Assembly (NCBI RefSeq): GCF_019599465.1
Contig: NZ_RKLR01000005.1
Span: 124,001-188,000, forward strand
Direction of reading: 5' to 3'
DNA: 64,000 bases
Source of the DNA: Haloarcula rubra
Lineage (GTDB): Archaea > Halobacteriota > Halobacteria > Halobacteriales > Haloarculaceae
The notes below the pieces were generated by a model. That model had not been told where the DNA came from, did no database searches, and was given only the letters and a program-made list of their open reading frames with translations. The position numbers and the translations under genes are program-made. Of the stretch, positions 12,774 through 17,018 are shown one piece after another (position 1 is the first letter of the stretch; the number at the start of each line of letters is the position of its first letter).

Positions 12774-13913
12774 TCAGGCCTCGTAGGCTTCCTGTGCCAG
12801 TCGGTGTAGCTTGTGGACGGTGTGCTCGTTCGGGCCGAGTTGGGCCTGCGCCAGCGCGCCGGACTGGAGGCCCTCGTACTGGCGTTCGACGAGTTCGAAG
12901 TCCTCCTCCTGCAGTTGGCGACTCGTCTGGACGAACTCGCGTTCGTCCGCGGTCATCTCGGCGGACTGGAAGTAGTAGTCGGCGATGAGCTGGAACCGCC
13001 CCTCGTCGATGGGGTCGATGATGTACGTGCCGTAGCCGTCGGCGGTGCCGTACATGTTCACCGTGAAGTTCGGCCAGAAGTAGTAGAACTTCGCCTCGTG
13101 TTCCTCGTGGATGCGCATCTCGTCCTCGACGTCCTCGGCGTGGGTGTAGTGCAGAATCCAGTGGTAGTCGTCGACCTCGAGTTCGGAGTCGTTCAGTTCG
13201 ACGCCGGTTATCCAGTCCTGGTGGTTGGCGTGACAGTGGTCACACTCGGAGTAGTTGCCGGCGAACGTCTTCCAGTTACACTCGACCTCGGAGACGTAGC
13301 GGGCGGCGTGTTCGTACTCGCCCAGCGGCAGGGCCTCCAGTTCGTCTTTGAGCGTCCCGGCCTGTTCGGCCAGCGGCATCGGGTCCTCGGCGAAGTTGAG
13401 GAAGACGAGCGGCCCGATGCGGTCCGTCTGTACCTCGCGGAGGCCGTTCGCCTCCGAGTCGAGGCCACACACGTCCTCGTCCTCGAGGTCGGGGTTGAGC
13501 CCCGCCTCCTCGAAGCTCTTGGGCGTGCTCGTGAGGTCGCCGTCGAGGTCGTAGGTCCACATGTGGTACGGACACCGGATGCGCCCCACGTTCCCGGGGT
13601 CGGTCATCGGCGTGTCCTCGACCATCTTCGAGCCGCGGTGCGCACAGACGTTGAAGAACGCCCGTACCTCGTCCTCGGCGTCGCGGACGACGATGACCTG
13701 CCGGTCGCCGACCGTCCGGGTGAAGTACGCCCCCTGTTCCTGTATCGCGTTGGCGTGGCCGGCGTACACCCAGTACTGGCCGAACACCTTGTCCTTCTCC
13801 ATCTCGTGGACCGCGGGGTCGGTGAAGTACCGCGCGGGGAGCGCGTTCGTCTCGTCGGTGATGTCGGGACTGACCGCCTCTACCTCGTCGTTCGTGGTGT
13901 TCCACCGCGTCAT
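12774..13913 (-). CDS. Rieske-type ring-hydroxylating oxygenase alpha subunit
   Basis: A 379-residue Rieske non-heme iron oxygenase. The [2Fe-2S] ligands are in C-A-H-R-G (C90, H92) and C-P-Y-H-M-W (C114, H117). The mononuclear iron motif is N-Y-S-E-C-D-H-C-H-A-N-H (N220, H226, H231). The E-C-x-H-C pattern resembles the carnitine/glycine-betaine oxygenase branch more than aromatic dioxygenases, so a quaternary-amine substrate is possible (inference). No reductase or ferredoxin is adjacent. The frame is open to 14027, but M-T-R-W at 13913 begins the family sequence, and CTTAAATGG-type DNA near 13967-13976 may be its promoter. Confidence 0.86.
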   Translation of the reverse strand: MTRWNTTNDEVEAVSPDITDETNALPARYFTDPAVHEMEKDKVFGQYWVYAGHANAIQEQGAYFTRTVGDRQVIVVRDAEDEVRAFFNVCAHRGSKMVEDTPMTDPGNVGRIRCPYHMWTYDLDGDLTSTPKSFEEAGLNPDLEDEDVCGLDSEANGLREVQTDRIGPLVFLNFAEDPMPLAEQAGTLKDELEALPLGEYEHAARYVSEVECNWKTFAGNYSECDHCHANHQDWITGVELNDSELEVDDYHWILHYTHAEDVEDEMRIHEEHEAKFYYFWPNFTVNMYGTADGYGTYIIDPIDEGRFQLIADYYFQSAEMTADEREFVQTSRQLQEEDFELVERQYEGLQSGALAQAQLGPNEHTVHKLHRLAQEAYEA

Positions 13914-14027
13914 ACGTCGAAACCTTCGGGCAGTTGCCCCATGGGAGTTCACCACAGATGACACACCATTTAAGTCCCCTCCGGAGAACTGGCGCCGTCG
14001 CAGACGGCACTCGGGGTGGGACCCCAT

Positions 14028-14681
14028 TCACTCGTCGACGAGAACGTCCTCGACGAGTTGTCGCGTCCCTCGGCGGAGGCGCCCGCCGACGGCGGTCGGA
14101 CAGATACCGAGTCGCTCGGCCAGTTCGGCCTGGGTCGTCTCGCGTGGCTCCGCGAAGTAGCCACACCGGTACGCTTCGGTCAGCGCGCGTCGCTGTTCCT
14201 CGCTGACGGCCGTCACGGTGCCGTCGGCCATCCCGTGCCGGTCGTAGACGCGGACCAAATCGAAGGCGATTCCCTCCGACCGGCAGTGCTCCCAGAGTTC
14301 GGCGATGGCCTGCCGGTCGGGGAGTTGCAGGCGGAGTCGCCACCCGGTGTCGGCCGTCCGCGCCTCCAGCACCAACCCGCCCAGTTCCGTGACCTTCGGG
14401 GAGAGGAGTTCCGTGTCGGAGCGGTGGGTGAACCGGTACAACCGGGAGGTATCGGACTCGGAGACGACCATGGCCTCGGCGACGGTGTCGTCCCGTTCGA
14501 CGGCCGCGTCGAAGCGCTCGAACTCGCCCGACTCGCTCTGGACGAGGAAGAAGAACATCGACGTCTCGGGGTCGGTCATCGAGTTCGTCACAACGCGCAC
14601 GTCGACCGACGGCACCCGTTCGACGGTGGGTGCCAGCGTCAGTTTCTCGTGGTCGATGCGGATGACGGCGATTAGACTCAT
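14028..14681 (-). CDS. Bat-type helix-turn-helix regulator (HTH-10)
   Basis: A 217-residue haloarchaeal regulator related to the C-terminal half of the bacterio-opsin activator. The N-terminal 150 residues are a beta-rich sensor-like module. The HTH-10 domain occupies about 155-212, with the typical L-T-E-A-Y-R-C-G-Y-F-A-E-P-R then T-Q-A-E-L-A-E-R-L-G-I. It lies upstream of the Rieske oxygenase gene on the same strand with a 114-bp gap, so it probably regulates that gene. Signal unknown. Confidence 0.87.
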   Translation of the reverse strand: MSLIAVIRIDHEKLTLAPTVERVPSVDVRVVTNSMTDPETSMFFFLVQSESGEFERFDAAVERDDTVAEAMVVSESDTSRLYRFTHRSDTELLSPKVTELGGLVLEARTADTGWRLRLQLPDRQAIAELWEHCRSEGIAFDLVRVYDRHGMADGTVTAVSEEQRRALTEAYRCGYFAEPRETTQAELAERLGICPTAVGGRLRRGTRQLVEDVLVDE

Positions 14682-14948: not shown

Positions 14949-17018
14949 CTACGCGAGGAAGACGTGCCGCGGGCGGTCGGCCAACACGTCCCGCCCCCAA
15001 CTCACCGTGTCGGAGAAGGCGTCCGAGCGGAAGAACGCCATCGCGTCCTCCTTGCTGTCCCACTGGCTGGCGATGAACATGTCGTTCTCGTCGTCGCGGT
15101 TGGCGAGCAGCGCCGTCTCGCGGTGGCCGTCCATGTCCGCCAGCAGGCCGCCGACGGTGTCGAACTTCTCGACGAAGTCCTCGCGGTACTCGGGCTTGAC
15201 GGTGTAGAACATCCCCATCGTCCCGAAACCGTCGCTCTCGCCCTGCCGGCGGACGACGTCGGGGAGGTCCGAGAGGTAGCCGCTGGCCGTCTCGGCGGCC
15301 TCCTCGGTGTCCCACAGGGAGGCGACGGCCGTGGTGTCGGCGTCGAGGTCGGTGTAGACCGTCGTCCGAACGTGGGTGTCGTAGCGCTCGAAGGCGCTCC
15401 GGAGGTCCGCCACCTCGTCGGCGAGTTCGTCGGGGTCGGCCTCGGAGTAGACGACCAGCGCGTAGACGTCCTCGCCGTGTGGCTGGCCGGCGTAGACGCC
15501 CTCGGCTTCGAGTTGCTCGCGGATGGACTGGGAGGACGCCGCGGCCTGTTCGTGGTCCCCCTCGTCGTCCGCGGCGTCACCCTCTCCCAGCGGGCCGCCG
15601 AGTCGCTCCTCGACGCCGTCGAGGTCACCGAGGAACCCGGCGGCCGTCTCGGCGGCCTCCTTGGCCGTCCAGACGCTGACGACGTAGGTCTGGCCGCTCT
15701 GGGCGCGGACCGTCGTCGTGACGTGGCGGTCGTAGTGGCCGAAGCTCTCTGCGAGGTCCTCCACGTCGTCGACGATGTCTTCGGCGTCGGCCGAGGAGTG
15801 GAACACCAGCGCGTATTCACCGGCGTCGTAGGCCTCGCCCTCGTGGAGACCAAGCCGGCCGACCCGCTGGGCGACGTCGTCTATCTCCTCGAAGTCGCCG
15901 GAGACGTCCGGCCGACCGCCGCTCGACCCCGAATCGTCGTCCTCGTCGCCGTGGTCGCTCGCCGGGTGGTCGGCGTCGGCAGGGTCCTCGCCGTGCGGGT
16001 GGTCGCCCTCGCTCGCACCGCCGGGGTGGGCGCCGCCGTGGTCCTCGGCGTCGCCGGCCCGAGCGTGGCCCGCGTCGGCCTCGGCGTGCGCGTCGGGCTG
16101 CCTCTGCCCGCCGACCTCGACGTGCGCGTCGGGCCGCCCCTGCCCGCCGCCCTCGGCGTGCGCGTCGACGCCCGTCTCGCGGCCACCCTCCGCGTGGACG
16201 CCACTCTCGGCGGCGGCCGTCCCGTCGTCGGTCGGGACTCGCTGGCCGGCGAGGACGGCCGGGAGGTCCGCGGGGTCGAAGCGCCGGCCGACGTAGAAGG
16301 GGCCGAACTCGGCGAACTTCGAGGTCGAGGGGTCGAAGCGCATCTCGGTCAGCAACTCCTTGATGCTGGTCATGTCCTCGCTCCAGAGCGTGATGCCCCA
16401 CTCGTAGTCGTCGAAGCCGATAGAGCCGCAAATCATCTGGTTCACGTCGCCGCCGTACCCACGGCCGATGTCGCCGTGGCGCTTGATGTGAGCCGCTCGC
16501 TCCTCGAAGGACGTGTCGTACCAGTTCTGGTCGGGGTCCCGGCGCTTGCTCATCGGGTAGAAACAGACGAACTCCTCGTCGGGCACCTCGGGGTGTAGAC
16601 GGGCCTGAATGTACTGTGCGAGCCCGGAGTCGTCGTCGACCTCCCCCTCGAAGTACTCGCGGGCCTTCTCGGTGTAGCCCGACGCTTCGGTGACGGAGAC
16701 GTAGGAGTAGACCTGTTCGGTAAACTGCGCGAACTCCGTCTGCTCGAAGTGTCGCTCCGCGGCGTCTAGGTCGCCCATCGTCGGCCGGAGATGCAGAACC
16801 ATGAGGTCGGCCTTGTGGCCCAGCACGGTGTAGACGGCCGTCTGGCCCTCTTCGGCGTCCTCGATGGCTTCGTACGCCGAGAGGAAGTCGATGCCCTCCG
16901 AGAGCGCGCGGTCACGGACTCGCTGGGGGGCCTCCCGCCACGCGTCCCAGTCGATTCGACGGCAGTCGTGCAGCACGTACCAGCCCTCTTCCGTCTGTGG
17001 GGGCGTCCGTTGGTCCAT
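14949..17018 (-). CDS. pitA: PitA-like heme protein: chlorite-dismutase/HemQ-type domain with three ABM-like modules
   Basis: A 689-residue fusion. Residues 10-260 form a chlorite-dismutase/HemQ-type heme domain; the probable proximal heme ligand is H181 in I-K-R-H-G-D-I-G-R-G-Y. Residues 265-370 are a His/Asp/Gly-rich disordered linker. Residues 400-470 and 515-590 are two similar ABM-like repeats, both with a Y-A-L-V-x-x-S-x-A-D opening and a V-x-S-x-W then E-A-A-E-T-A ending. Residues 600-689 form a C-terminal antibiotic-biosynthesis-monooxygenase (ABM) domain. Haloarchaeal PitA joins Cld-like and ABM parts; this one looks unusually long because of the extra repeats. Role: probably heme handling or coproheme decarboxylation in cytosol. 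Confidence 0.87.
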   Translation of the reverse strand: MDQRTPPQTEEGWYVLHDCRRIDWDAWREAPQRVRDRALSEGIDFLSAYEAIEDAEEGQTAVYTVLGHKADLMVLHLRPTMGDLDAAERHFEQTEFAQFTEQVYSYVSVTEASGYTEKAREYFEGEVDDDSGLAQYIQARLHPEVPDEEFVCFYPMSKRRDPDQNWYDTSFEERAAHIKRHGDIGRGYGGDVNQMICGSIGFDDYEWGITLWSEDMTSIKELLTEMRFDPSTSKFAEFGPFYVGRRFDPADLPAVLAGQRVPTDDGTAAAESGVHAEGGRETGVDAHAEGGGQGRPDAHVEVGGQRQPDAHAEADAGHARAGDAEDHGGAHPGGASEGDHPHGEDPADADHPASDHGDEDDDSGSSGGRPDVSGDFEEIDDVAQRVGRLGLHEGEAYDAGEYALVFHSSADAEDIVDDVEDLAESFGHYDRHVTTTVRAQSGQTYVVSVWTAKEAAETAAGFLGDLDGVEERLGGPLGEGDAADDEGDHEQAAASSQSIREQLEAEGVYAGQPHGEDVYALVVYSEADPDELADEVADLRSAFERYDTHVRTTVYTDLDADTTAVASLWDTEEAAETASGYLSDLPDVVRRQGESDGFGTMGMFYTVKPEYREDFVEKFDTVGGLLADMDGHRETALLANRDDENDMFIASQWDSKEDAMAFFRSDAFSDTVSWGRDVLADRPRHVFLA

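Follow-up and report, generated by a model that had tools for sequence, protein, structure and literature searches.

A protein of 689 residues, in which a coproheme decarboxylase-like domain is joined through a histidine-rich linker to a series of small C-terminal units, is encoded within the 64,000-nucleotide stretch of Haloarcula rubra DNA analysed here (the window). This locus raises the question of whether such a protein is an elaborated novelty or an ordinary member of its family, and of what its C-terminal units do for heme.

The gene encodes a PitA of common layout

The gene is one uninterrupted open reading frame of 689 codons, running on the minus strand from 17018 to 14949, and the length given in the original prediction is therefore correct. 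Its product combines a ChdC domain, a linker and a C-terminal ABM domain in a single chain in a haloarchaeal host, and is covered end to end by the curated NCBIfam equivalog family NF007124 (PRK09565.1, 'heme-binding protein'; residues 1–689 against positions 1–637 of a 637-position model, 1074.5 bits, cut-off 446). The protein exceeds this model by 52 residues, and the part most variable among relatives is the linker. The gene product is PitA, the coproheme decarboxylase that haloarchaea use aerobically, and it belongs to a family already known. The source genome has one copy, and the closest named relative found was that of Haloarcula pellucida (88% identity over the best segment). Pfam matches bore out the earlier identification of a Cld/HemQ-like domain and a terminal ABM domain. 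The features of the locus are as follows.

14949–17018, minus strand: pitA gene, 689 aa, ChdC–linker–R1–R2–ABM (open reading frame; NF007124 match; single copy)
16251–17018, minus strand: coproheme decarboxylase (ChdC/HemQ) domain, residues 1–256, with conserved Y154, W166, H181 and Q194 (Pfam, 1t0t match)
15822–16250, minus strand: low-complexity linker, residues 257–399, 12 His (residue count)
16079–16167, minus strand: 36-bp in-frame tandem repeat, 2.5 copies, approximately residues 284–314 (Tandem Repeats Finder, 90% matches)
15606–15821, minus strand: repeat R1, residues 400–471, with H428 and H432 (HYDRH) (HMM, alignment; predicted β-α-β-β-α-β)
15471–15605, minus strand: R1–R2 connector, residues 472–516, ending YAGQPHGE (part with pLDDT under 60, part predicted helix)
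15249–15470, minus strand: repeat R2, residues 517–590, with H549 (RYDTH) (HMM, alignment; predicted β-α-β-β-α-β)
14952–15233, minus strand: C-terminal ABM domain, residues 596–689, with H632 (MDGH) and H685 (PRHVFLA) (Pfam ABM; 2omo match)

Homologues were collected from 180 loci with 179 ChdC open reading frames and 164 distinct proteins; because this set leans towards relatives of the window, counts drawn from it are not prevalences. Left out of the 153 complete homologues were eight proteins with no recognised C-terminal part (seven bacterial ChdC proteins and L075, split between frames) and three with no ABM domain, in which the contig or reading frame ends early (two with one R, one with two). 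Two R repeats followed by ABM, as in Haloarcula rubra, were present in 90 of the 153, one R plus ABM in 60 (median length 510.5 aa) and three R plus ABM in 3 (741–767 aa), the resulting four C-terminal units being found in some Natronomonas. With the same layout in 90 of 153 homologues and an NF007124 match from end to end, the protein is not unusual in its architecture, and neither the elaborated form of PitA envisaged beforehand nor an unusual or unique fusion can be upheld. The situation named at the outset as telling against that idea, homologues generally sharing the linker and repeats, is largely what was found: the repeats are common and the linker is variable. The description 'very long' likewise holds only in relative terms, the protein ranking 7th in length among 156 relatives with a C-terminal part and the three-repeat forms being longer.

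The claim that PitA is restricted to haloarchaea was borne out. Of 292 genomes drawn from the class, 291 carried the NF007124 family, and in a sample of 53 class genomes the C-terminal module was present in 52; outside the class, within the same phylum, only single ABM-unit matches were obtained, in 5 of 241 genomes. Across the phylum sample, the C-terminal profile found nothing beyond PitA, terminal fragments or ABM-unit matches. No standalone R protein was detected among 4027 other open reading frames from the loci, where the single clear match of the R HMMs was L075 and one further row was non-significant (E 0.6). The Haloarcula rubra protein is an ordinary family member, with an added repeat that is lineage-wide and a linker that drifts.

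In a tree of the ChdC domain (105 rows, quick search, 26 of 102 inner branches unresolved), repeat number takes 7 changes when the absence of repeats in the bacterial rows is treated as a state of its own. The haloarchaeal rows that branch deepest have a single repeat, which suggests that one repeat is probably the ancestral condition.

Several loci depart from the single intact gene. In a metagenome-assembled genome (MAG QS_1_68_20), the PitA L075 is split over two frames, through a genuine frameshift or else a fault in the assembly. A second ChdC-like open reading frame of 479 aa (L202 and L214; G129:C1:2323276-2324370) has ChdC and one R match and no ABM, and its host genome G129 also has a full PitA. 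Two pitA copies per genome, both above the family cut-off, occur in G068 (L195/L199) and G105 (L191/L201), and a haloarchaeal genome that is 99% complete (G014) gave no PitA match, through either loss of the gene or a gap in the assembly. L211 (G130:C45:36644-36832) is a remnant of the PitA C-terminal part that contains a TGA in frame, a full copy being present elsewhere in that genome.

The ChdC domain is conserved at its catalytic site

Pfam Chlor_dismutase matched residues 49–247 (E 2.3e-62), and the solved HemQ structure 1t0t aligned with residues 7–248 (E 4.4e-65). Tyr154, Trp166, His181 and Gln194, which we take to be the catalytic Tyr, Trp, proximal His and Gln of ChdC, were unchanged in the alignment in all 156 haloarchaeal and all 7 bacterial sequences. 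Among the 156, position 158 holds Lys in 151 and Arg in the other 5. Conservation of the four residues predicts that the ChdC domain is intact and should be an active coproheme decarboxylase. The likeness to bacterial ChdC/HemQ (Geobacillus 1t0t, Listeria 4wws) lies in the N-terminal 250 residues and these catalytic-site residues; unlike Haloarcula rubra PitA, the 7 bacterial relatives collected have neither the linker nor the C-terminal units.

Ferrochelatase (PF00762) gave no match in the source genome, as expected if heme comes via coproheme/siroheme routes. AhbD-like proteins are present, the best TIGR04545 match (335 bits) lying under the 500-bit cut-off, and together these findings are in keeping with coproheme being drawn from the siroheme route.

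The linker varies widely among relatives

The linker was originally described as about 100 residues long with more than ten histidines; the histidines stood, at 12, but the length is 143 residues. The remaining 546 residues hold 15 His, so that about 4 would be expected in the linker by proportion. Among 156 relatives, this linker ranks 2nd in length and 33rd in His number. Its length is due in part to the 36-bp in-frame tandem repeat, which codes for a 12-aa unit with one His and which, in Haloarcula pellucida (L031), reaches 4.7 copies (96% match). Of the 153 linkers, 56 contain tandem arrays with a period of at least 6, and the period was divisible by three in 103 of 106 array rows. The number of linker histidines ranges from 0 to 19: of the 153 homologues, 15 have none, 30 have two or fewer and 64 have ten or more. 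A conserved metal or heme site in the linker was rejected as a general feature in view of this range and, since the His-rich character is not conserved, these counts lend little to the specific metal- or heme-binding role first suggested for it. Judged by comparison of the homologues, the linker behaves as a drifting tether and not as a conserved site; it is acidic, variable and probably disordered, and its histidines are probably not essential.

R1 and R2 are related and adopt an ABM-like fold by prediction

R1 and R2 of Haloarcula rubra PitA (residues 400–471 and 517–590) are 47% identical, and an HMM built from R1 only gave its own R2 95 bits, so that their likeness is not due to chance and the two related repeats of the original prediction are real. 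The R1 HMM also found the last R unit in 153 of 153 proteins (E<1e-3). The R of the short, one-repeat form is on average 58% identical to R2 and 50% to R1.

The relation of the R repeats to the terminal domain is more distant. Pfam ABM (PF03992) matched residues 603–672 (E 6.9e-13; whole-protein score 49 bits, gathering cut-off 23.1), and R2 alone gave 13.6 bits (E 0.077), below the gathering cut-off, and R1 alone no ABM row. The R2 HMM, in a small search space, recognised 116 of the 153 ABM units (E<1e-3), compared with none of 1683 shuffled or reversed controls, and the R1 HMM only 21 of 153; the hhalign probability with ABM was 13% for R1 and 64% for R2.

AlphaFold models were obtained for the C-terminal part of the Haloarcula rubra protein (303 aa, 73 sequences, pLDDT 81.1, pTM 0.58) and for that of the short form L156 (191 aa, 49 sequences, pLDDT 82.4, pTM 0.79). 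In both, each repeat is modelled as one β-α-β-β-α-β unit, the mutual placement of the three Haloarcula rubra units being uncertain at a pTM of 0.58. The terminal unit superimposed on the ABM structure 2omo with Z 9.8 (rmsd 1.8, 93 residues) in Haloarcula rubra and Z 10.9 in the short form. The two-unit short-form model spanned both units of heme-bound HmoB (4jou; rmsd 3.2, 119 residues), with a Z of 8.7 that is barely over the background level flagged by the fold-search tool. Fold matches of R1 were general ferredoxin-like proteins, such as ACT domains, and the rows of the search also held general ferredoxin-like and efflux-pump chains, which we took to reflect a common arrangement. The R repeats thus have an ABM-like fold by prediction, as had been supposed, the sequence tie to ABM being weak, and common descent of R and ABM is likely.

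Each unit carries an invariant histidine outside the IsdG-type motif

The R repeats had been said to lack obvious catalytic features. This needs correction, as each C-terminal unit has one His at the junction of helix 1 and strand 2, namely H432 in R1, H549 in R2 and H632 in ABM. The junction His is invariant in R1 and R2 of the two-repeat proteins (90/90 each), in the short-form R (60/60) and, in both alignments, in ABM. A second His, four residues before it, is present in 90/90 R1, 58/60 short-form R and 20/90 R2 units, and R has an invariant Trp close to where strand 3 ends, found in 90/90 of both R1 and R2 in two-repeat proteins.

Profile alignment to the heme-degrading monooxygenase 8avh was weak (E 0.0015), with the Asn position outside the alignment, and placed Phe662 and Val672 of Haloarcula rubra PitA opposite the second Trp and one His of 8avh, respectively. 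This Trp and His are presumably the IsdG-type Trp and His. Of the 153 ABM domains, 144 fitted the search pattern and 9 did not; all 144 have Phe at the Trp position, and 139 have Val at the His position. The Asn-Trp-His active site of IsdG/HmoB heme monooxygenases is therefore lacking at its Trp and His, and heme binding by the C-terminal units cannot be read from that motif. Tandem ABM heme proteins of the HmoB/LmHde type (4jou, 4kia) resemble PitA in having tandem ferredoxin-like units, the C-terminal one being ABM; PitA differs in lacking the IsdG-type Trp/His pair and in its much diverged R units.

Reassessment of the heme-carrying fragment of Haloferax PitA

PitA of Haloferax, a protein of 501 aa, has been studied by Kosugi et al. 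2017 (PMC5746218), who report that deletion of pitA leads to poor aerobic growth that is rescued by heme, that the protein holds 0.83 heme per subunit, and that this heme is located in a 20-kDa C-terminal fragment and not in ChdC. In their alignment, the fragment is one ABM domain interrupted by an insertion of 41 residues, and His444 is given as the counterpart of the heme ligand of IsdG (PMC5746218). We mapped these residues through L156, a Haloferax-like relative of 509 aa whose AGKPH motif lies 8 residues past the published Haloferax position, and not through the Haloferax volcanii sequence itself. Mapped in this way, Thr333 lies on strand 1 of the R unit, and both Val434 and His444 belong to the ABM unit, where His444 is the His of MDGH and corresponds to H632 in Haloarcula rubra PitA. 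The models point to a heme-carrying fragment that most likely consists of two ABM-like units rather than one. With Phe and Val at the IsdG-type positions and His444 at MDGH, the ligand of the fragment is most likely not an IsdG-type His, as far as the alignments indicate; this leaves room for His444 to act as a ligand from a different position in the fold.

Haloferax volcanii PitA shares with the Haloarcula rubra protein the ChdC domain, the His-rich linker and an ABM-containing C-terminal part, and differs in its type, relatives of which have one R plus ABM, where Haloarcula rubra has an additional R unit and a longer linker. In the literature searched we found neither biochemical work on a three-unit PitA nor a printed description of the added repeat, on which Bab-Dinitz 2006, reportedly a paper on PitA of Haloferax volcanii, may say more.

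A proposed path of heme through PitA

We consider it probable that PitA makes heme at ChdC and that its C-terminal ABM-fold units hold this heme and pass it on. The ChdC domain would oxidatively decarboxylate coproheme to heme b, as homology, the conserved catalytic-site residues and Haloferax genetics suggest, while the variable linker would tether it to the C-terminal string of R1, R2 and ABM. New heme would then move to these units and be kept away from peroxide, as proposed by Kosugi et al. (PMC5746218), before being handed on. The string would comprise two units in Haloferax-type PitA, three in Haloarcula rubra and four in some Natronomonas; the invariant His of each unit would take part in heme binding, and the extra R unit may add capacity or stability. 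New heme is reactive and its passage after synthesis in cells is poorly understood, so that a synthase fused to a heme-holding module offers a direct handle on this passage. What is new here is that defined units with named candidate histidines replace a one-domain picture with a doubtful ligand assignment, and that nature offers forms with two, three and four units that can be compared.

ABM proteins usually act as dimers. The R units could instead be structural, capping or pairing with ABM or with one another and binding no heme, the single site then lying in ABM or at the R2–ABM interface. R2 plus ABM resembles tandem HmoB-like proteins, the first His of HxxxH is absent from R2 in 70 of 90 two-repeat proteins, and the published stoichiometry is approximately one heme per two-unit chain (PMC5746218). 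We regard this reading as tenable if somewhat doubtful, as retention of both HxxxH histidines in R1 (90/90) and in the short-form R (58/60 for the first, 60/60 for the second) exceeds structural need. That the R units are separate heme sites of a new kind, formed through the junction His (within HxxxH in R1 and the short-form R), seems unlikely to us. On that reading, PitA would be a heme synthase with its own heme buffer, the capacity of which would be set by the number of units (two, three or four) and would change along haloarchaeal lineages.

Two further readings place the function elsewhere. The His-rich linker might be the functional novelty, capturing iron, copper or heme for the enzyme: it concentrates 12 His in 143 residues, and affinity of the Haloferax linker for cobalt and nickel is already published, the protein having been purified on Co and Ni columns and its Co binding ascribed to the linker (PMC5746218). 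Such column binding is metal binding in vitro and not proof of use in the cell, and we hold linker capture to be quite improbable, with no linker His in 15 of 153 homologues and two or fewer in 30, tandem arrays, nearly all in frame, in 56 of 153 linkers, and heme remaining on the C-terminal fragment after digestion with proteinase K (PMC5746218). Alternatively, the C-terminal units might actively degrade heme as an IsdG/HmoB-type monooxygenase and so couple synthesis to turnover, which would accord with the family and fold of the ABM domain and with the weak match to 8avh; given Phe662 and Val672 at the second Trp and His positions and the arguments of Kosugi et al. against degradation activity (PMC5746218), we find it very hard to credit. 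The reading that we favour remains synthesis at ChdC followed by holding and transfer of heme by the C-terminal units.

Gene neighbourhood

An operon context was considered as a clue to function and was rejected, as the neighbours of pitA are not conserved past close relatives in the 56 loci compared. DHH, DUF5783 and other neighbours lie near pitA in 10–12 of these loci, and the Rieske gene and HTH gene beside pitA occur near it in one only, that of Haloarcula pellucida. In the window, this pair lies downstream of pitA on the minus strand (12774–14681), a Rieske ring-hydroxylating oxygenase gene adjoining that of a BAT/HTH_10 regulator.
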